Below, piece by piece: positions 30,590-51,701 of a DNA stretch of 64,000 nucleotides. The stretch is from positions 2,480,001-2,544,000 of the forward strand of contig NZ_CP031148.1 in NCBI RefSeq assembly GCF_003342675.1. The letters run 5' to 3'. A program made the translations under genes and the position numbers. The stretch's first letter is position 1, and each line of letters opens with the position of its first letter. The notes under the pieces are model-generated. The model was not told the DNA's origin and ran no database searches. It saw only the letters and a list, made by a program, of their open reading frames with translations. The stretch is from Haloplanus rubicundus (lineage in GTDB: Archaea > Halobacteriota > Halobacteria > Halobacteriales > Haloferacaceae).

Positions 30590-30660
30590 GCGCCGGTGGT
30601 CTAGTGGTAGGACCTGAGCCTTCCAAGCTCATGGCCCGGGTTCAAATCCCGGCCGGCGCA
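30590..30660 (+). tRNA. tRNA-Gly (anticodon UCC)
   Basis: A 71-nt cloverleaf: acceptor GCGCCGG / CCGGCGC, D-arm GTCT...GGAC, anticodon loop CTTCCAA giving UCC, and T-arm with GGTTCAAATC. Discriminator A; CCA is not encoded. Its 3' 42 bp is repeated at 51140-51181, so it is the chromosomal attachment site of the island that follows. Confidence 0.97.
30619..30660 (+). repeat. attL: 3' end of tRNA-Gly (42-bp direct repeat)
   Basis: The segment from CCTTCCAAGCTCATGG to the final GGCGCA is identical to 51140-51181. It covers the anticodon loop to the discriminator, the usual target of archaeal tyrosine integrases, and leaves a functional tRNA at the left boundary. Confidence 0.95.
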
Positions 30661-30794
30661 TGACTCGGCGTTTCACGCCTCGTACGCTCATTTTGCGGCA
30701 CGAAACAGTCAGAAACCAAATATAGAGAAAATCTTCCGGTTCGGCTAACGGAGATTACCCCGCCGCCGTGTGGCGATTAGTGTGGGTAGGCAAG

Positions 30795-30846: not shown

Positions 30847-31992
30847 ATGCAACTCAAGGAAGACACCACTGAGACGGTCGAATTTCCGGTTCCCCCGGTA
30901 GCAGAGGCAACGGAAGAACGACTTGATGATTTCTCCGCGCTTCTCGGAGACGACTATCGAGACTTCAAGGAAACCTTCCTCGAATGGCTACTCATCGAGG
31001 GGCGGGACACATACAAGCGAGAAGGCTACGCTGATGCTACGGTGCGGACGACCCACTACAAGGTCGAAGAAGCCTACCGCTGGTTGTGGGAACGCGAAGG
31101 AAGCTACACGAAAGAGTTCACACCAGAGGATGCAACCGAACTGATCGAATTTCTCGTCCGACGAACGACGCATCCTGAAACCTACGTCTACACGTTCGAG
31201 AAATCACTGAAGCGACTGTTCAAGTTCTTCCGCGAGAAGCGGAACAAGGATATCCCCGAGTGGAGTCACGAGATCCCGCTGGACACCAACTCGGATTCGT
31301 CCACCAAGGACAAGTTCTACCCCGAGGAGATGCGGGCGCTCTACGAAGCCGCCCTCGCGGTCAGTTCCGTCAAGAGCTACCACAGTGTCAGTCGACCAGA
31401 GCGCGACCAGATCAAGGCGTATCTTTCACAACGATTCGAGATGCCCAAGTCCGAGGTCGCTGCAGAAGAGTTCGAGCGGGCAAACTCGTGGAAAATCCCC
31501 TCCATCGTCTCCGTGTCATCAGACTGTGGGCTTCGACCCATCGAGGTGGGGCGTGCGAAGGTGGAGTGGTTCAACCTAGAGAATAAGAAGATGCTCGTCC
31601 CCAAAGACGAGTCCACGAAGAACGACGCCGAGTGGGAGTGTGCGCTCTCCAGCAAATCAGTTACCGCCGTGAGCAATTGGCTCTCGGAACGCGGGAGCTA
31701 CGACCTCTACGACGGACGGGACGCGGTGTGGCTCACCCGGACAGGGAACACCTACGGGTCAGGGACACTGAATCGCGTGCTGAACAAACTCACCGAGGAA
31801 GCTGATCTCGACCAGCAGGGACGTAACCTGTCCTGGTACTCCTTCCGTCATGGAGCGGCCTCAATGTGGGCCGAACAGGAGGGCATCTATCTGGCGAAGA
31901 ACCAGCTTCGGCACAAGAACGTCGAGACGACGATGCGGTACACCCGTGGGTCGGTCGATGCCGCGACAAAAGCCGCCGATTCAATGTGGTAA
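30847..31992 (+). CDS. int: Tyrosine recombinase/integrase (XerC-like)
   Basis: A 381-residue integrase. An N-terminal SAM-like DNA-binding domain (about 30-135) precedes the catalytic domain. Active-site residues: Arg230 (CGLRPIE), Arg334 (YSFRHG), His356 (LRHKNVETT) and nucleophile Tyr365 (MRYTRGS). The first His of the usual HxxR motif is Tyr331 here. It catalyses strand exchange between the element's att site and tRNA-Gly. GC content is nearer to the chromosome than most island genes, suggesting separate history. A GNAT gene starts 4 bp after its stop. Confidence 0.93.
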   Translation: MQLKEDTTETVEFPVPPVAEATEERLDDFSALLGDDYRDFKETFLEWLLIEGRDTYKREGYADATVRTTHYKVEEAYRWLWEREGSYTKEFTPEDATELIEFLVRRTTHPETYVYTFEKSLKRLFKFFREKRNKDIPEWSHEIPLDTNSDSSTKDKFYPEEMRALYEAALAVSSVKSYHSVSRPERDQIKAYLSQRFEMPKSEVAAEEFERANSWKIPSIVSVSSDCGLRPIEVGRAKVEWFNLENKKMLVPKDESTKNDAEWECALSSKSVTAVSNWLSERGSYDLYDGRDAVWLTRTGNTYGSGTLNRVLNKLTEEADLDQQGRNLSWYSFRHGAASMWAEQEGIYLAKNQLRHKNVETTMRYTRGSVDAATKAADSMW

Positions 31993-36866: not shown

Positions 36867-39494
36867 TCAGTCAGCGTTGTACGCGCTGATTACCTCCAAA
36901 ACGTCTCTAAAGCTAACTTCAACACCGTTGTATGTTTCGTCAGCATTGTAAGCTTGGATCACACCTAATACGTCTTGGAAGGTTGGTTCGCCGGGCTCGG
37001 TCGGTAGGGGGCTACTGTCGCCCTCCGTAACGGCTCCTTCTTGAGTAGGATCCTCTGGGACAGTTGCTGTAAGTGTCTGTGATTTTCCCTCCTCAATCGA
37101 TGCTGTATAGCTATCGTTAATTGTGCCACCTTCCGCTGTGGTGCCTTTTATTTCAACTGTGTACTCTCCGTTATCCGTTCCCGTGGCGATGATATCGTAG
37201 TCGCCGGCCGATGCGTCAAAGAAATAGTACAGTCCTTCGTACTCTGTCTCTTCTCGGATCTTGTCGTTGGGTATCGGTGACTCTGGGACAAGCTGGCCAT
37301 CAGGTCCCGTCACATTCAGGATTACTGGCGATTTAACACCGACAGATATGAAACTCTCAAGGCCCTGGGAGAGGATGGTTTCGAATCCCTCGTTATTTCC
37401 ACCGACACTGAATAATGATAAATCTGGGTCTGGCTTTTCAGCTAAGAACATCGCTCGGTCATAAGTATCCCCATCGATACCAGTATAAGAGACAGAAAAA
37501 TCCTCATCCTTTGAGGAGCGAGAAAACACCAGTTGTGTCTCTCCGCCTTGCTGATATGTTTCGGCCAGATAGTTCGGGTCATAGATCGGGACTGAAACCA
37601 AGAAGTCAGACTCACGTTGTACCTCGTATGCGAGAACCTGGTGGCCACCCAAGAATCGATCAACGAGCGATGACACAGACGAATCGACTAACGACACAGA
37701 TGCCGGGGTGCCCTTGGTGACTTGGTTTTCGATTGCGTTCAGCACATCCTCGTGATTGATCGAACCGGAACCTACATCAGGAGCGAAGACTTGGGCAAAG
37801 TATCTGAAGCCGAATATGGGATCGAATGCCTGTGAGTGCTGAATTTCGTCTATGTCTACTTCGACAGGATCCAAGCCGTCGGTCGTTTCAGGATTATCGA
37901 TGATATCGGCGGCCGTTTCTACAGATGTAGAATATTCTGGGAGAGAAGGAACACCACTTGAGGAATACTTTCGTGCAGTGTGTACCATTCCTAAGCAGTG
38001 CCCCCCCGTTAGACCACCATCAAGAGCCAAATATAATGCGCTCGCAAGGGCGGGAACAAATCCTGGCGCCGAGGTAGCGATACCCATATCCTCTAATTGG
38101 GGAAGAAATGTCGTCCGAACAGCAGTAAACACCTCGTCGGAATCCGGTGTTGACCCAGTATCGTAGTTGGCAAAGCCAAACCCATGGACAGACGGGTCAA
38201 ATCCTGAGACTGGCGTGTTTTCTGCACTATTGTTCTTGAACACATACGTTGCGCCTGAATGATTGCCGAGTGCTGAATCACCCGGTGCCCCAACAAACGC
38301 GGTCCCATCATCGAGTGCCACTATGCCGGAAAATTCGTCTTCGGAATCGCCATCATCCGGCGTTAGTTTGGCCTGCTGGCTCCACTCTCCATTTGTTTGA
38401 GTGAAGATATATGGTGACAAGGTGTCAGCTGACTCCGTAGGAGCTGGGACCCCAATGATTGCCGTGTCTCCTGATAGCGTAAGTGATGGAACAAAGTCAC
38501 TAGTGCTATCATAGTCATCTGGCGTCAGTTTGGCTTGCTGGCTCCACTCTCCGTCATCCCGGGAGAACACGTATGCTGATGTATCGTTTCTTGCTCCGAT
38601 AAGCGCCGTTTCTTTCGCCAGTGCGGCAGATATTCCGAAAACGTCGCTACTATCGCCATCTTCGGGGGTCAGTTTGGCCTGCTGACGCCACTCTCCGTTA
38701 TCCCGGGAGAATACGTACGCTGTGCCTGCGGAATCTCCATTAGAATTATTATCCCTGGACGCACCAATAAGAGCGATTTCTCCCGCTACTGCGACCGGGT
38801 CCCCAAAGAAGTCTTCGTCAGCACTATCATTTGCCGTGAGTTTCGCTTCTTGTGTCCATTCATCATCATCAGTGCGATTGAATACATACGCAGAGCCTGT
38901 TCGGTTGTCACCGTCGCCATCCCCAGGTGCGCCAATAAGTACTGTTTCCTCTTCTATATCAACGGACGTTCCAAACAAGTCTCCAGACCCGCTGTCAGCG
39001 GGAATTAGCTTGGCTTGTTGCGTCCACTCGCCGTTATTACGCGAAAACACATATGCTGATCCTGCTCCCGCTGTGTTTCCATTAGGAGCCTCATCGTAGT
39101 GAGCGCCGATAAGTGCTGTTTCCCTCGATAGTGCAACTGCATCCCCAAAGCTGTCTTCGCTATCCCCATCGTCGGGAATTAGCTTTGCCTGCTGATCCCA
39201 TTCGCCAGTATTTCGCGAGAACACATATGCCGACCCTGAATGTTCCCCATTTGGATCATCACCGTACGCTCCAATGAGAGCAGTCTGATTCGATAGTGCA
39301 ACTGCGCTACCGAAAAGGTCTTCAGTACTGCCATCATCGGCTGTCAGCTTCGTTTGTTGGAGCCAGTCCGTTTGTTGAGCCGACTGTTCCGCCTGTTTTT
39401 GTCCAGTTGAGGGTAACTGTCCCTTGACTCGCCCAGTCCATCCACCAATAGCCCCCGTGCCGAGTAACCCAAGGAATGACCGCCTTCTGACCAT
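36867..39494 (-). CDS. Tat-exported FG-GAP propeller protein with candidate cysteine-protease domain and dockerin-like tail
   Basis: An 875-residue secreted protein. Twin-arginine signal RRRSFLGLLG at the N-terminus. About seven FG-GAP repeats (residues 46-425; each with DLFGSAV, ALIGA and SAYVFSR...QQAKL) form a beta-propeller. Residues 430-690 contain GGHC500LGM, GGH618QVLAYEV and IYD639PN, the order and spacing of a papain-like Cys/His/Asp triad. A beta-sandwich region follows, and the last 40 residues hold two FQDVL/FRDVL...YN units as in dockerins. TATA-like AAATATAATG about 30 nt upstream supports the start. Confidence 0.8.
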   Translation of the reverse strand: MVRRRSFLGLLGTGAIGGWTGRVKGQLPSTGQKQAEQSAQQTDWLQQTKLTADDGSTEDLFGSAVALSNQTALIGAYGDDPNGEHSGSAYVFSRNTGEWDQQAKLIPDDGDSEDSFGDAVALSRETALIGAHYDEAPNGNTAGAGSAYVFSRNNGEWTQQAKLIPADSGSGDLFGTSVDIEEETVLIGAPGDGDGDNRTGSAYVFNRTDDDEWTQEAKLTANDSADEDFFGDPVAVAGEIALIGASRDNNSNGDSAGTAYVFSRDNGEWRQQAKLTPEDGDSSDVFGISAALAKETALIGARNDTSAYVFSRDDGEWSQQAKLTPDDYDSTSDFVPSLTLSGDTAIIGVPAPTESADTLSPYIFTQTNGEWSQQAKLTPDDGDSEDEFSGIVALDDGTAFVGAPGDSALGNHSGATYVFKNNSAENTPVSGFDPSVHGFGFANYDTGSTPDSDEVFTAVRTTFLPQLEDMGIATSAPGFVPALASALYLALDGGLTGGHCLGMVHTARKYSSSGVPSLPEYSTSVETAADIIDNPETTDGLDPVEVDIDEIQHSQAFDPIFGFRYFAQVFAPDVGSGSINHEDVLNAIENQVTKGTPASVSLVDSSVSSLVDRFLGGHQVLAYEVQRESDFLVSVPIYDPNYLAETYQQGGETQLVFSRSSKDEDFSVSYTGIDGDTYDRAMFLAEKPDPDLSLFSVGGNNEGFETILSQGLESFISVGVKSPVILNVTGPDGQLVPESPIPNDKIREETEYEGLYYFFDASAGDYDIIATGTDNGEYTVEIKGTTAEGGTINDSYTASIEEGKSQTLTATVPEDPTQEGAVTEGDSSPLPTEPGEPTFQDVLGVIQAYNADETYNGVEVSFRDVLEVISAYNAD

Positions 39495-39693: not shown

Positions 39694-41559
39694 ATGCAAG
39701 AACTTGATCGACGGACGCTACTTCAGACGGGGGTAATGGGTGTTACAGCAGGAATTGGCCTTAGTGGGATCGCTGGTCGTGGGCAGGCAACTGGGACCAG
39801 CCCCGATAAGGCGCCCGCATACACGACAGAGACATCAGCGATTAGCCTGCCAGACCCCGTTACTGAACCACTCTGGACCAAACAGTTTGATGGAGACACC
39901 TATGCGAGATATGCATATGGTGGTGAAGCGGTATACGTTCGGGTATCTCCACAGAATGACATAGATTCGACTCAATTACTTGCGATTAATGCAGAAACTG
40001 GCGAGGTGCGCTGGCAACGCGACTTCTCCAGTGAATTCATTGATATAAGGCCGTTTGAGGACAATGTTCTCGTGCAACAGGGGTCGACAATAACGGCCTA
40101 CGATCCGCCATCCGGCAGTCAGCAGTGGACTATCGAATACCCCAGTGAAGGGGAGCATAGGCGGCTTACAACGAGTCTTGTTCGAGAAAAAACATTTCTC
40201 GTCACCAGTGAAGAGGAAGGGATTACGGATAATCAACTCTTGGGTGTTGATCAATCGACTGGAGAAATAATATGGAACAAGACTATCTCGCTTCCAGGGG
40301 CACATCAGGAGGCAACCCTCCCATTTTCACCAAACGAATATGTGATGTTCGCAACGGCCGATGGTCACCGTATCCTTGATCTTGATGCACGCACTGGCGA
40401 GGTCTTTGGGACGTACACCATCCCTGTAGCCGAACCGATCGCATCATCAGACTCCCTCATTGTCTCTCTGAGGGAATATCCTGAAAATTACACTCTCGTG
40501 AACAGCTCTAGCTACACAGGTTCATCATCAACTGAGGTCGTGAGAGTATTCGAGTCCTTCGACAGTGATCCAGTTCTCACACTTTCTGGACCGAGGATTC
40601 CTCAGATTGACGGCAGACGTGGGGATCTGAAATACGGAATCATCGACGAGGGACAGTTCCGCGCCGTTGCAGTCCCAAGTGGGGAGACACTCTGGACGCA
40701 GTCCATTGATACTGATATCAACCACCAGATTGGGGGATGGGTTAACGGACTCTTTTATCACCTGACGAATACACCTGCATCAGCAGGTTACACGGCCAAA
40801 CTTGCGGCCAGACAGATCTCAACGGGGCAGGTTGAGTGGAGTCGTACAATCTACGAGAATATGCAAACAGAAGATTCCCGACCACCATACATCAATTTGC
40901 GATCATATAGCGATCCGGTGATTGTGGGGCGTGCTAATGGAGATTTCTTAGCTCTCGATGCGGCTACTGGGACAGTAGAGGAGTGGGCAATTTCGCTCAC
41001 CACTGAAGGAGACAATTATGATCTTTATCGAGCGAATCAAGACGGATTCGTTATGACGACAACTGACACATATGCCCCGGAGTCGACGAGTCTTTCGATG
41101 TTCCCTGCGCCGGATTCTGACTCGTCATCTGATTCACCCTCTGACGGGTCTGACTCACCGACCGAGTCGCCATCTGAGGGCAACCTCAGTCTGTCACTTT
41201 CGCCTTCATCGGTTACTTCCGGGACGACAACAGATGTAGGCGTCACAGTTACCGACAGTGCAACCGGCGACGCAGTTGTAGATGCAACAGTCTCACTCTC
41301 TGCTCTTGGTTTGTCGGCGACCACGGATCTGAATGGTGAGGCAACCCTGTCGATAAACACTAACGATCCAGACGAATACACCATCTCAGTCAGTAAGGAC
41401 GGCTACGCAGACACTACAACGACACTAACCGTGGAAGACAGCGAGAGTAGTGATGCGTCCTTCCAAGATGTACTGGGAACAATTGGAGACTACAATTCTG
41501 GCAATGCATCATTCCAAGACGTACTCCAAGCAATAGCTGACTACAACGCGAACAACTGA
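39694..41559 (+). CDS. Tat-exported PQQ-like beta-propeller protein with Ig-like domain and dockerin-like tail, cassette 1
   Basis: A 621-residue protein. Tat signal DRRTLLQTGVMGVTAG; then PQQ-like propeller repeats (residues about 55-470; AINAETGEVRWQR, GVDQSTGEIIWNK, DLDARTGEVFG, ALDAATGTVEEW); a Ser/Asp/Pro linker (about 475-500); an Ig-like or carboxypeptidase-regulatory-type domain (about 500-585); and two dockerin-like FQDVL...YN units at the end. No catalytic site is seen; it probably binds a surface or partner. The SD GGTGAGG precedes the ATG. A 604-residue paralogue lies 2.7 kb downstream. Confidence 0.85.
   Translation: MQELDRRTLLQTGVMGVTAGIGLSGIAGRGQATGTSPDKAPAYTTETSAISLPDPVTEPLWTKQFDGDTYARYAYGGEAVYVRVSPQNDIDSTQLLAINAETGEVRWQRDFSSEFIDIRPFEDNVLVQQGSTITAYDPPSGSQQWTIEYPSEGEHRRLTTSLVREKTFLVTSEEEGITDNQLLGVDQSTGEIIWNKTISLPGAHQEATLPFSPNEYVMFATADGHRILDLDARTGEVFGTYTIPVAEPIASSDSLIVSLREYPENYTLVNSSSYTGSSSTEVVRVFESFDSDPVLTLSGPRIPQIDGRRGDLKYGIIDEGQFRAVAVPSGETLWTQSIDTDINHQIGGWVNGLFYHLTNTPASAGYTAKLAARQISTGQVEWSRTIYENMQTEDSRPPYINLRSYSDPVIVGRANGDFLALDAATGTVEEWAISLTTEGDNYDLYRANQDGFVMTTTDTYAPESTSLSMFPAPDSDSSSDSPSDGSDSPTESPSEGNLSLSLSPSSVTSGTTTDVGVTVTDSATGDAVVDATVSLSALGLSATTDLNGEATLSINTNDPDEYTISVSKDGYADTTTTLTVEDSESSDASFQDVLGTIGDYNSGNASFQDVLQAIADYNANN
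41323..41559 (+). repeat. 3' end of propeller cassette 1, near-identical to cassette 2
   Basis: The last 237 bp of the gene match 45874-46110 almost base for base (a few substitutions around 41451-41472), while the propeller parts between are strongly diverged. This indicates recent gene conversion or module exchange limited to the Ig-like and dockerin-like ends. Confidence 0.85.
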
Positions 41560-44295: not shown

Positions 44296-46110
44296 ATGCA
44301 AGAGCTTGATCGACGGACGCTACTTCAGATGGGGGTAATGGGCGTTACAGCAGGAACAGGGCTCGGTAGGCTCGCTGGTCGTGGGCAGGCTATGAACATC
44401 AGTCATAGTCAACCTACATTCACCTCTAGAGCGTCAGCGATTAGTCCTCCAGACACATTTACCGAACCACTTTGGACTACACAGTTCGATGGATCAATTA
44501 CCCAAACAGTCGGTGAGGGAGAACTCTACATTGTAGATTCATCACCGACTGACGGCGACCGGCTGTTGGCATTGAATATTCAAACAGGCGAGGAACGCTG
44601 GAGTCGTGCCATCTCCACTACCCAAAATCCAGTTACCGTCACTGCTGATAGAGTTCTTGAGATCGACCAATCCACAGTGATTGCCTACGAACGTTCGTCT
44701 GGAGAGCAACAGTGGACAGTTCAGTACCCTGGAGAGGTAGATTTCTCTTCATTGGTACTCCGAGAGGCAGGCGAGGAGACGCTTCTCATCACTAGCCGGG
44801 CAGAAGGTGCTACAGAGAAGCGACTCCTTGGAGTCAATACCACGACTGGTGATGTGCGCTGGGATAAGACAGTCTCACTTCCAGGAGAGTTTGTGGAAGC
44901 AACCCTTCCCTATTCTCCAGCAGACCCGGACATTTACGTAATGTTCGCAACGACGACTGGGCATCAGATTTTGGATCTTAATGCAACAACAGGCGAGGTA
45001 AACGAAACACATACAGTCCCTATAGCCGGACCAATCTCGTCAGGAAATCCCACGAGTTCCTTTTTAATCGAGGAATCTGAAGATTACCTAGTCGTTAGGA
45101 GTTTCGGACTGGTTAATGAGGGGGGGATAGTTGTGGTCCAAATTTTCTCATCATTCAGCGACGAACCGGACCTCGTACTGTCTGGCGTGAATGTTCACCA
45201 GATCGATAGCCGACCCGGTGAGAAAAAATATGTCGTTATAGACGACGAACGACTTCGTGGCGTCGCCTCTCCAAGTGGCGAGACTCTCTGGGAGCAGTCA
45301 ATTAATACTGATGTCACTCAGCGTATTCGTAGCGGTACTACTTCAGATTTATTCTATAATTTACGATTCCCATCAACATCCACAGGCGAGTACGAGACTG
45401 AAATTGCTGCTCGGAGTGTAACGACTGGGGAAATTGAGTGGAGTCGTTCTGTAGCAGAGAATAGTGGTCAACCAAATATAGGATTTTATCCGGGTGATAA
45501 CACGGTACTTGTAAGTCGTAATAACGGAGAATTCGTGTCCCTTGATACAACTACAGGTGAAGTGGGAGACTGGGCGATATCTCTAGCCAGTGAGGGAGAC
45601 ATCTACGATATTTATCAGCATAACGATGTTGTAGTCGCCTCAGCAGAGACTTTTAGTCAAGACCCAGCAAGCGCAACGTTATCCATCTTCCCAGCCCCGG
45701 ATACGGTTCCTTCCGATTCATCACCTGACGGGGTTCTTGATGTGTCGCTTTCGGCATCACAAATTACGGCTGGAACAACGACTGATGTGACCGTGGCAGT
45801 GAGCGACAACACAACCGGCGACTCAGTGGAAGATGCGACAGTCTCAATATCCGATCTCAATCTGTCGGTGACGACGGATCTGAATGGTGAGGCAACCCTG
45901 TCGATAAACACTAACGATCCAGACGAATACACCATCTCAGTCAGTAAGGACGGCTACGCAGACACTACAACGACACTAACCGTGGAAGACAGCGAGAGTA
46001 GTGAGACGTCCTTCCAAGATGTGCTGGGAACAATTGGAGACTACAATTCTGGCAATGCATCATTCCAAGACGTACTCCAAGCAATAGCTGACTACAACGC
46101 GAACAACTGA
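44296..46110 (+). CDS. Tat-exported PQQ-like beta-propeller protein with Ig-like domain and dockerin-like tail, cassette 2
   Basis: A 604-residue paralogue of the gene at 39694. The Tat signal DRRTLLQMGVMGVTAG is nearly identical; propeller repeats (ALNIQTGEERWSR, GVNTTTGDVRWDK, DLNATTGEVNE, SLDTTTGEVGDW) are diverged; then come a shorter Ser/Pro linker, the Ig-like domain and the near-identical dockerin-like end. Probably displayed outside or secreted folded. The conserved leader with GGTGAGG is retained. The pair arose by duplication of the whole cassette, including the repeat units between. Confidence 0.85.
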   Translation: MQELDRRTLLQMGVMGVTAGTGLGRLAGRGQAMNISHSQPTFTSRASAISPPDTFTEPLWTTQFDGSITQTVGEGELYIVDSSPTDGDRLLALNIQTGEERWSRAISTTQNPVTVTADRVLEIDQSTVIAYERSSGEQQWTVQYPGEVDFSSLVLREAGEETLLITSRAEGATEKRLLGVNTTTGDVRWDKTVSLPGEFVEATLPYSPADPDIYVMFATTTGHQILDLNATTGEVNETHTVPIAGPISSGNPTSSFLIEESEDYLVVRSFGLVNEGGIVVVQIFSSFSDEPDLVLSGVNVHQIDSRPGEKKYVVIDDERLRGVASPSGETLWEQSINTDVTQRIRSGTTSDLFYNLRFPSTSTGEYETEIAARSVTTGEIEWSRSVAENSGQPNIGFYPGDNTVLVSRNNGEFVSLDTTTGEVGDWAISLASEGDIYDIYQHNDVVVASAETFSQDPASATLSIFPAPDTVPSDSSPDGVLDVSLSASQITAGTTTDVTVAVSDNTTGDSVEDATVSISDLNLSVTTDLNGEATLSINTNDPDEYTISVSKDGYADTTTTLTVEDSESSETSFQDVLGTIGDYNSGNASFQDVLQAIADYNANN

Positions 46111-46167: not shown

Positions 46168-46345
46168 AAACGATCCTTCGAGGGGAGGGTAGCGAACGAA
46201 TTTAGAGCGGGCTCTACTCCGCTGCCGTAACACCCTCGAAGGCTTACAGCTCCCCAGAAAAATCGTGGGGTATCTCACCTACTGTATCTATGTCAAACAC
46301 CCAACAATCTCTACAACGACGCTGGTGACTGACGTGTCGATACCT
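46168..46345. repeat. Island structured repeat, copy E
   Basis: GATCCTTCGAGGGGAGGGTAG ... CACCCTCGAAGGCTTACAG pair; AATCGTGGGGTATCTCACC and AACACCCAACAATC follow in the order of copies B and D. It lies directly after cassette 2, as copy B does after cassette 1. Confidence 0.75.
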
Positions 46346-46456
46346 GAAGGGTGCGGTGAAGCGGAGTAACCACGCATAGAGCGGGAGGAGAGATGACTTG
46401 GAGGTATATTAGCGCAGAGAATTTTTACTGTGCGATCTACTCGCTCTCTGACCAAT

Positions 46457-46657
46457 TCACACGTCAAATCCGTTCCGCCTGAGGGCCTCTGCCAGTTCTC
46501 CATCAGGATCAGCCGCAAACTCAACCAACGAGGACTCTGGTCTTGTTGTCGTATAGAGATCAGAGTCAATATTCTCCGGAATTTCGTTTGTGTGTGAATT
46601 GTCTACAACCGCAACTGATATTGTTGGCCTTGTAGCCCCGTCTTCTGACTCGCTCAT
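46457..46657 (-). CDS. Small acidic island protein, unknown
   Basis: A 66-residue acidic protein (MSESEDGATRPTISVAVV... ) with a C-terminal helix (LAEALRRNGFDV). Composition fits a true haloarchaeal protein. An AT-rich TTTATACTC lies about 50 nt upstream, farther than ideal. No family recognised. Confidence 0.5.
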   Translation of the reverse strand: MSESEDGATRPTISVAVVDNSHTNEIPENIDSDLYTTTRPESSLVEFAADPDGELAEALRRNGFDV

Positions 46658-47180
46658 TAATTGATGGTACGAGAGAGCAACATTTGGCCTTTGGTATTTG
46701 AGTATAAACTGCTCTTTATCTCAAGAGTAACGACGCATAGAGGTGAGGCTGGAACAAGCCCTCCCTGATCGTTAACCGACTCTAAGGCTCGGTACCATCG
46801 ATGAAATCACTGAGTGTCAACCATCTCGGCAACCAAGCTGACTACCGGTGCGACGAGCTTCGAGAGGTAGTGTGTGATTGAGCGAAACCACGCATAGAGG
46901 CGCCTGAAAGCAAGCATCTCCATGCGGTGAAATACCGGGTTGGGACATCACCTGGCGTATACGAGCGCATCATGAGTGGCTTGCTCTGCGAGATTGGTCG
47001 TCTGTGGTTCGAAATTGACGAAAGTGTGGAGCGAATCAGCCAGTCACTACACCGGCACATCGGTCACTGTAAACCAGTTTCTTCCAGAATTATGGGAGAG
47101 ATAAAAAGTATCACTTGGTTGTGCTCAGCGCTAAATAATCACCCAAGGGTTATAGACACCCATGACAAAGGATAACAGGT
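46658..47180. other. 523-bp gap with repeat fragments
   Basis: No convincing gene. It contains short pieces shared with other island gaps: ACGCATAGAGG units (near 46730 and 46890), GACTCTAAGGCTCGG and ATGAAATCACTGAGTGTCAACC (near 46777), related to 43020-43065. The end carries a TTATAG box (about 47149) for the gene at 47181. Confidence 0.45.
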
Positions 47181-47537
47181 ATGGCCAAACCCGTCGAAAA
47201 GGTCGTCGGAAACGAACGCGACGAAAAATGGCGGCACGCGGTCAACACTGATACGTTCCAAGCGATTGAGTCATATTTCCATTCGGAGAAGGAGTATGAG
47301 TTCGCTGGGTACGATGTTCTTGAGCTCGGTCCGGAGCGTGAGAACGACTACATGGTGGTATTCCGCTTCGACGATGATAGGGAAGACACAATTCTTGAGG
47401 CGGTGCTCACCTTCCGTGATGACGGGCTCGTTGATACGAAAATCACACGAGATTTCATCTCCGATAATGAAATCGTTCGAACGGAGATCTTCGACGTCCA
47501 GAATGGCGACGTTGTGAAGCACAGAGAAGTGGAATAA
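47181..47537 (+). CDS. Unknown island protein upstream of the halocin-like gene
   Basis: A 118-residue soluble acidic protein with alternating strands (DYMVVFRFDDDREDTILEAV; LVDTKITRDFISDNEIVRTE, read in parts), like a small beta-rich domain. No signal, membrane segment or known motif. It precedes the halocin-like gene by 80 bp on the same strand; by position it could be an immunity or accessory protein, but nothing in its sequence shows this. Confidence 0.65.
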   Translation: MAKPVEKVVGNERDEKWRHAVNTDTFQAIESYFHSEKEYEFAGYDVLELGPERENDYMVVFRFDDDREDTILEAVLTFRDDGLVDTKITRDFISDNEIVRTEIFDVQNGDVVKHREVE

Positions 47538-47617
47538 CTAACGTGCTGTTTTTCATGCGTTTTAGTGCGCCCTTTTCGGACCAACTAATATATACTTGGA
47601 AATGATTTTACCCTCAC

Positions 47618-47887
47618 ATGAGCAAATCGACAAAATGTTCTGCCTGCGAACAACTATATCAAGCTGCGGAGTACATTATTAACAATAAAATTGTTTCCGG
47701 GGTTGCTCAACTTGGAACAGCTATATTGTGTGGTGTTGCAGCGAATGGATTCACAGGGCCGGTCGGGGGTGGAGCTGCGGGATTTTCGTGTTCCAAACTT
47801 GCTGGAAAGGTAATCAGTCATATTCGACAGGACGGTTTTTCACAATCAGCAAATCAGGCTTGTCAATCCATCGGCCTGTGTCCATAA
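47618..47887 (+). CDS. Halocin C8-like peptide (candidate bacteriocin)
   Basis: An 89-residue peptide with six Cys (7, 10, 38, 58, 82, 88). From memory of mature halocin C8: both have CSAC at position 7-10, a hydrophobic Gly-rich centre (here ILCGVAANGFTGPVGG and AGFSC) and end in AC-x3-GLC (here QACQSIGLC). Halocin C8 is cut from a Tat-exported precursor with an immunity region; here there is no leader, so export is unclear, or the gene is a stand-alone relative. TATA-like TAATATATAC at about 47587-47596 gives a leaderless transcript. Confidence 0.7.
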   Translation: MSKSTKCSACEQLYQAAEYIINNKIVSGVAQLGTAILCGVAANGFTGPVGGGAAGFSCSKLAGKVISHIRQDGFSQSANQACQSIGLCP

Positions 47888-48246
47888 TGTTAGCTATTTG
47901 TTTTCTATGCCCCTGTATTAGGCGGTTCGGGGAGATCTAAACAACGGGGAGACAGCCATCCAACATCCTCAATAGACAGCTACTGAGAGCGCCGAAATCA
48001 GTCGCATGGCGTCTCGAAGAAAGTGACTGCATGGGTTCCACTGGTGAGCAACCTCCGGTTGCGACATAGATGCTCCCCCGAATTTTCGAGAAACTGTACT
48101 TGAAGCCGGAGGGTAGGAATCCTTCGAGGGGGAGACCACAGACCAGTTCAGAGCAGACTCTAATCCCGACGCTGTAACACCCTCCAAGGCTTACAATTCT
48201 CTTTCGGAACTCTCCCTATACAACCCATTAGCAACACTTCCGTAAC
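47888..48246. repeat. 359-bp gap with island structured repeat, copy F
   Basis: Copy F (about 48118-48210) has AATCCTTCGAGGGGGAGAC ... CACCCTCCAAGGCTTACAA and CAGACTCTAATCCCGAC between; its right part is truncated at the end of the helicase gene. No gene supported in the gap. Confidence 0.65.
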
Positions 48247-51139: not shown

Positions 51140-51181
51140 CCTTCCAAGCTCATGGCCCGGGTTCAAATCCCGGCCGGCGCA
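51140..51181 (+). repeat. attR: 42-bp copy of the tRNA-Gly 3' end
   Basis: Identical to 30619-30660 (CCTTCCAAGCTCATGG to GGCGCA). It lacks the 5' part of the tRNA, so it is not a functional gene. It is flanked by a short inverted pair, GTAGGGTTCA (about 51108) and TGAACCCTAC (about 51218), that may be part of the element's attP arms. Confidence 0.93.
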
Positions 51182-51271
51182 TTTTCCGAACGAAGTGAGG
51201 AAAATCGCCCAGAGGGATTGAACCCTACCAGTCGCGCGCAGCGACCGTAGGGAGCGAGCACGTCTGGTTTT

Positions 51272-51293
51272 GGTTCAAATCCCGGCCGGCGCA
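51272..51293 (+). repeat. Second, shorter att remnant
   Basis: A 22-bp match to the very end of tRNA-Gly (GGTTCAAATCCCGGCCGGCG plus CA) lies 91 bp beyond attR. It suggests an earlier or nested integration at the same tRNA, now deleted to a short scar with a TTTTCC/GGAAAA hairpin (51182-51204). Confidence 0.85.
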
Positions 51294-51701
51294 CTACGAC
51301 CTGTTACTGCGCTCGCTTCGCTCGCTTGTAAAAGCTCGATCAGAAGCCAGCGGGCCTCCCTTCGGTCGGCTCTTGGCCCGTTCGCTCACGGTACCCGAAC
51401 TCGACGGCCACACCGACACGGGCGAGTATCTCGTGTCCGACGGAAGAAGCCGTGACACGACGCTCGGCAGACCGCCGTGGCCCTACGTCCCGGCCGGAAT
51501 CGGATCGCTCACAAAATATCATAATACATATACATCTTCCGAAGCCGGACCGATTGCTCCGACGGCGAATAGGGCGTCAAACACCACATACGAGCGCCGA
51601 GACACTCGTACTCACGGTACGGATGCCGATTTTTAGGCCGTGCGAAAAATTGTCTGACTACTGAAAAGTTTAAGACGGTGGCGCACGAAGTACCGGATGT
51701 A
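51294..51701. other. Gap between the att scar and dpsA
   Basis: Chromosomal-type GC content returns here. No gene supported in about 400 bp. An AT-rich patch AATATCATAATACATATAC (about 51515-51533) could be an orphan promoter. The dpsA TATA box AAAAGTTTAAG lies at about 51664-51674, 28-38 nt before its ATG. Confidence 0.5.

Follow-up and report, generated by a model that had tools for sequence, protein, structure and literature searches.

Within the 64,000-nucleotide stretch of Haloplanus rubicundus DNA analysed here (the window), two adjacent genes, p118 and p89, probably form a split, leaderless halocin C8 system, in which a HalI-like immunity gene precedes a toxin gene of mature length, as the HalI and halocin domains do in the halocin C8 precursor. 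Among archaeal bacteriocins, halocin C8 is the standard example of production and immunity directed by one gene, which usually encodes a Tat signal, a HalI-like immunity domain and the halocin domain in an exported precursor that is cleaved into two parts. At sequence level the basis of our reading is borne out: both homologies, the gene order, the absent leaders and the location in an integrated element. Since p118 is HalI-like and p89 begins at the mature N-terminus, the pair would correspond to such a precursor in two parts, minus signal and linker. The two genes are:

47181 to 47537, plus strand: p118, immunity-like, a free-standing HalI-like domain (HalI-like profile rank, 4,821-ORF search and AF2 model)
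47618 to 47887, plus strand: p89, toxin-like, a stand-alone halocin C8-like domain (TIGR04449 positions 1-69/69, shuffle controls and alignment A1)

The p89 reading frame has an ATG start and encodes 89 residues with six cysteines at residues 7, 10, 38, 58, 82 and 88. All motifs named in the original prediction are present as stated: CSAC at residues 7-10, CG at 38-39, GFSC at 55-58 and AC-x3-GLC near the C-terminus, followed by a single proline. Profile search, proposed there as a check, aligns p89 end to end with the NCBIfam halocin C8-like domain TIGR04449 (1-69/69, E 1.2e-4, 23.0 bits). Because this score is 1 bit short of the curated cut-off (24 bits), p89 is, as judged by its sequence, a divergent relative or variant rather than a typical TIGR04449 member. 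An independent halocin C8-domain profile, built from 18 relatives with p89 left out, matches over the whole domain at 24.5 bits (E 1e-5 within the ORF set), while the next-best ORF in the window reaches 5.4 bits. Among shuffles of p89, the top score was 16.3 bits for 5,000 matched in composition and 16.0 bits for 5,000 with the six cysteines held fixed, so that none of the 10,000 reached p89 and the similarity goes beyond cysteines or composition. The likeness of p89 to the halocin C8 domain is thus far above chance, as originally proposed, and p89 carries the sole C8 domain found in this 3.77-Mb genome.

The cysteines of p89 also follow the family. In alignment A1, p89 keeps the core frame C-x2-C ... 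C ... C ... C-x5-C; five cysteine columns are invariant and the sixth is common to most sequences, which agrees with the conserved spacing expected by the original prediction. Across 60 domains aligned to halocin C8 (HalC8 numbering; the sequences are related, so losses are not independent events), cysteines disappear in pairs: C22 and C52 are absent together in 18 domains with one discordant case, C18 and C61 in six, including p89 and the degenerate L102, and C7 and C76 in four, the latter two pairs with no discordant domain. The simplest reading of this family-wide loss is a set of nested disulphides, 7-76, 18-61 and 22-52, to which 10-70 and 30-44 are added by elimination; this yields a putative, testable disulphide map. 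Six of the ten halocin C8 cysteines remain in p89, and the missing four are exactly the pairs C18/C61 and C22/C52; loss of two whole pairs speaks for p89 having kept its fold. No PDB chain matched the halocin C8 family profile.

To place p89 among its relatives, we surveyed 391 genomes of the class. A halocin C8-like domain occurs in 48 of these, nearly always at the C-terminus of frames of about 190-400 codons; 63 candidate frames were listed, the weakest few of them doubtful, and further frames were read. In the typical gene, a twin-arginine signal is followed by a propeptide of about 150 residues, which in halocin C8 is HalI, and then by the C8 domain. Our test for the Tat signal was a simple motif rule that makes some wrong calls, hence we give no exact count of Tat-bearing precursors. 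The other C8 domains that we read belong to longer precursors, most of them with a Tat signal, or are fragments; none is a free-standing peptide of mature length, and a closer survey of family f4 (125 genomes) revealed no further stand-alone copy. A frame in G137 (L032) was rejected as a second stand-alone peptide: it lacks a start codon and has an IS66-type transposase upstream. Short frames in G192, G363, G438, G034:C109 and G322 were likewise set aside, as they lack a start, run into a contig end, or are fragmentary or frameshifted. Most leader-less frames are truncated (L033 has no start codon, L019 lies at a contig edge, L156 and L157 are fragments); L036 and L102 have no recognisable leader and may be degenerate. 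No conserved flanking partner was found beside halocin C8-like precursors.

Three large precursors, L158, L159 and L104, are frames of about 690-720 residues whose C-terminus is a halocin C8-like domain with six or eight cysteines. L158 (694 codons) and L159 combine a Tat-like start, a HalI-like domain in the middle and the C8 domain. The six-Cys set of p89 is identical to that of L032 and L036, and L158, an intact Tat precursor, has a six-Cys domain too; such six- or eight-Cys domains in Tat precursors of about 690 residues (L158, L159) make six cysteines an established sub-type.

The layout of the pair bears on whether it could be a decaying remnant, that is, a former Tat precursor that lost its leader and linker and whose two pieces persist in the element without function. 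We consider this rather unlikely. Truncated or frameshifted C8 domains do exist (L032, L033, L156 and L157), and the split pair was not seen conserved in any homologue: no close homologue of p89 or p118 turned up in GTDB contigs, plasmids, phages or viral contigs, so the search for the same gene pair elsewhere, proposed earlier, came back empty and its conservation cannot be demonstrated. Against decay, both genes have uninterrupted frames with an ATG start, the two lie in different reading frames, and no linker can be read in any frame of the intergenic DNA. A stop codon stands four codons upstream of the p89 ATG, and p89 indeed lacks a Tat leader, as first noted; its ATG lies six residues ahead of the first cysteine, matching the first residue of mature HalC8, and its cysteines were lost only as whole pairs. 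The original prediction had also called p89 minimal and devoid of an immunity part: the p89 polypeptide contains no HalI, but the HalI-like half seems to be present as the separate upstream gene p118. Each gene is, moreover, preceded by a TATA-like hexamer at the spacing of leaderless transcripts, a distance at which such hexamers occur at 1.1% of island positions:

47150 to 47155, plus strand: TATA-like hexamer TTATAG, beginning 31 nt upstream of the p118 ATG
47588 to 47593, plus strand: TATA-like hexamer ATATAT, beginning 30 nt upstream of the p89 ATG

This arrangement fits two leaderless transcripts, with one predicted promoter for each gene.

The pair is carried by a 20.5 kb element integrated at tRNA-Gly. 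The integrated island of the original prediction is confirmed by its 43-bp repeats, its tyrosine integrase and its GC content of about 0.5 against 0.65-0.75 outside. The features that delimit the element and the p118/p89 module are:

30619 to 30661, plus strand: att site, 3' part of tRNA-Gly (tRNA-Gly gene 30590-30660; repeat match)
30847 to 31992, plus strand: tyrosine integrase of the element (Pfam Phage_integrase E 5.7e-15; PHROG integrase E 2.8e-23)
46173 to 46248, plus strand: element-specific direct repeat of about 75 nt, upstream border of the p118/p89 module
48095 to 48200, plus strand: element-specific direct repeat, downstream border of the p118/p89 module
51140 to 51182, plus strand: att site at the far end of the element, where the 3' end of tRNA-Gly is repeated perfectly over 43 bp (repeat match)

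A congener (G281) harbors a related tRNA-Gly element with an identical att repeat and conserved flanks, other genes between them and no halocin pair, so the p118/p89 pair is variable cargo. The G281 element (L123, G281:C1:1824000-1840000) carries the same helicase-like gene, and its cargo includes an 887-aa methyltransferase-like protein and a 306-aa neighbour, which are perhaps a candidate defence system.

Several further properties of the element were recorded. Copies of the roughly 75-nt direct repeat lie at about 36201, 36293, 36777, 41649, 43216, 43907, 46173 and 48095; they share a single orientation and carry inverted ends CCTTCGAGG ... CCTCGAAGG, and the two at 36.2-36.3 kb are partial. 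They part the gene modules of the element in the manner of cassette borders; in this genome they occur only inside the element, and they are present in the related G281 element too. Three element proteins (36867-39494 on the minus strand, 39694-41559 and 44296-46110) combine a Tat-like start with repeats of the propeller type (FG-GAP or PQQ), and have a dockerin-like tail in common (FQDVLGTIGDYNSGNASFQDVLQAIADYN and similar). Just past the far att site, a second, partial att-like copy at 51252-51294 (60% over 43 nt) suggests a trace of an earlier integration. A 310-bp stretch at 46456-46764, which contains a minus-strand ORF of 66 aa, is found again at 79-93% identity in several congeneric genomes and once more in this genome.

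Location and charge could also suit an intracellular toxin-antitoxin module, in which p89 would act in the producer, with p118 as antitoxin, and would be freed by element loss or infection. Neither protein has an export signal (no Tat signal in p118 or p89), the acidic partner (p118, pI 4.4) is encoded ahead of the basic toxin-like one (p89, pI 8.6), and integrative elements are a common home of addiction modules. We nevertheless regard this as unlikely: the halocin C8 family is known for secreted peptides with structural cysteines, the genes have separate predicted promoters rather than one operon, and p118 has no recognised DNA-binding domain.

Our preferred reading, a halocin C8 system split over two genes, depends equally on p118, which the original prediction had linked to p89 by position only; in fact, p118 also matches a profile of HalI-like propeptides. 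The protein has 118 residues; neither it nor the upstream frames that were read contain a twin-arginine signal. Domain libraries, Pfam and PADLOC included, return no match for it, and PADLOC and Pfam return nothing for either gene of the pair. By eye, p118 resembles the propeptides of L022, L023 and L029. Against a profile of halocin C8-like propeptides, iteratively extended to 41-42 sequences with p118 left out, it scored up to 14.2 bits, ranking 2-3 against 5,000 shuffles (rank 2 with 41 propeptides), while the next real ORF in the window reached at most 3.6 bits. The match is colinear over profile positions 2-103 of 132 and covers almost the whole of p118. With the starting profile of 14 propeptides, p118 lay within the shuffle noise (7 of 1,000 shuffles higher), so part of the strength of the match rests on the extension. 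By pairwise standards the match is weak, and the pairwise hits that we inspected were rejected as weak and as unrelated proteins or frames that are not gene-like.

The single-sequence AF2 model of p118 (pLDDT 77, pTM 0.68) opens with a helix-loop-helix (helices 12-21 and 24-37) and has six strands. The HalI part of the HalC8 precursor was modelled as two helices and then strands, the order seen in p118, at a pLDDT of only 39; this model was too poor for a fold comparison. Foldseek found no match to p118 in PDB and BFVD at E <= 0.001. According to the title of Mei 2008, as cited in PMC11509114, the N-terminal helix-loop-helix of HalI is essential for immunity.

That p89 alone belongs to the halocin family and p118 is an unrelated small acidic protein matched by chance is quite improbable: convincing pairwise and library matches are lacking, one of 5,000 shuffles scores above p118 and the 14-propeptide profile did not set it apart, but p118 is the top real ORF of the window, the sole non-precursor among the E < 1 matches listed from 4,821 ORFs (all loci fetched), and directly adjoins the only C8 domain of the genome, with a colinear match and a model of helix-loop-helix plus sheet. 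We therefore best read p118, from these profile data, as a putative free-standing HalI-like protein, and infer for it an immunity role.

With p118 included in the profile, HalI-like matches occur in 54 of the 391 genomes, mostly in halocin C8-like precursors. L139 is a free-standing HalI-like protein with no toxin alongside, and L143, L145 and L154 are Tat-type precursors that combine a HalI-like domain with a different Cys-rich C-terminus, possibly further bacteriocin families that share the immunity fold. Since HalI-like domains occur without a toxin or before other Cys-rich C-termini, a HalI-like fold alone is no proof of immunity.

In a working split system, p118 would bind and neutralise p89 in the carrier cell. 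p89 would fold compactly via three nested disulphides (7-88, 10-82 and 38-58) and could be freed by lysis or through some exporter; no exporter or lysis gene was recognised within the element. Acting as a bacteriocin or toxin, the released peptide would harm related cells without the element, and this harm to non-carriers would favour carriers. More broadly, and tentatively, archaea may possess leaderless two-gene bacteriocin modules on mobile elements, with a halocin domain and its HalI-like inhibitor expressed separately. The toxin would then work without Tat export, either inside the cell, for addiction or suicide, or against neighbours once lysis has freed it. If functional, the pair would stand out among archaeal bacteriocins by its unusual two-gene design. 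It would show that the toxin and immunity halves work apart, would allow the immunity part to be tested with no processing involved, and would raise the question of how a halocin rich in disulphides can exit the cell, or act inside it, without Tat export. We found no paper on a split or leaderless halocin C8 in the literature searched, which covered a minority of subscription journals.

The closest known system is halocin C8 itself (ProC8/HalC8 of Natrinema sp. AS7092, with a Natrinema altunense copy in L075). p89 shares its core cysteine frame, Gly-rich hydrophobic centre and -GLC end, and in both cases a HalI-like domain is encoded ahead of the toxin domain. In halocin C8, however, a single gene encodes a Tat signal, HalI, a linker and an acidic mature peptide with ten cysteines, whereas p118/p89 comprises two genes with no Tat signal and no linker, and a basic peptide with six cysteines. 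Leaderless class II bacteriocins of Gram-positive bacteria are likewise made without a leader, the start codon taking the place of the processing site; they need dedicated exporters and are not disulphide-rich. p89 resembles them in being leader-free, but has no sequence relation to them and no recognised exporter. With TIGR04449 proteins, which are Tat precursors of roughly 190-400 aa or, in some cases, roughly 690 aa, p89 has domain homology and, in L158, the six-Cys sub-type in common; unlike p89, the intact relatives examined take the form of longer precursors, and a Tat signal can be recognised in nearly all of them. Mature HalC8 has 76 residues (PMC11509114). Chronic Sulfolobus spindle-shaped viruses carry toxins that harm non-carriers and are thought to favour carriers, and the one described in detail, SSV9 B310, has a signal peptide (PMC8628083). 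SSV9 B310 is a different kind of protein from p89, whose toxin role is putative, but both are borne by archaeal mobile elements.
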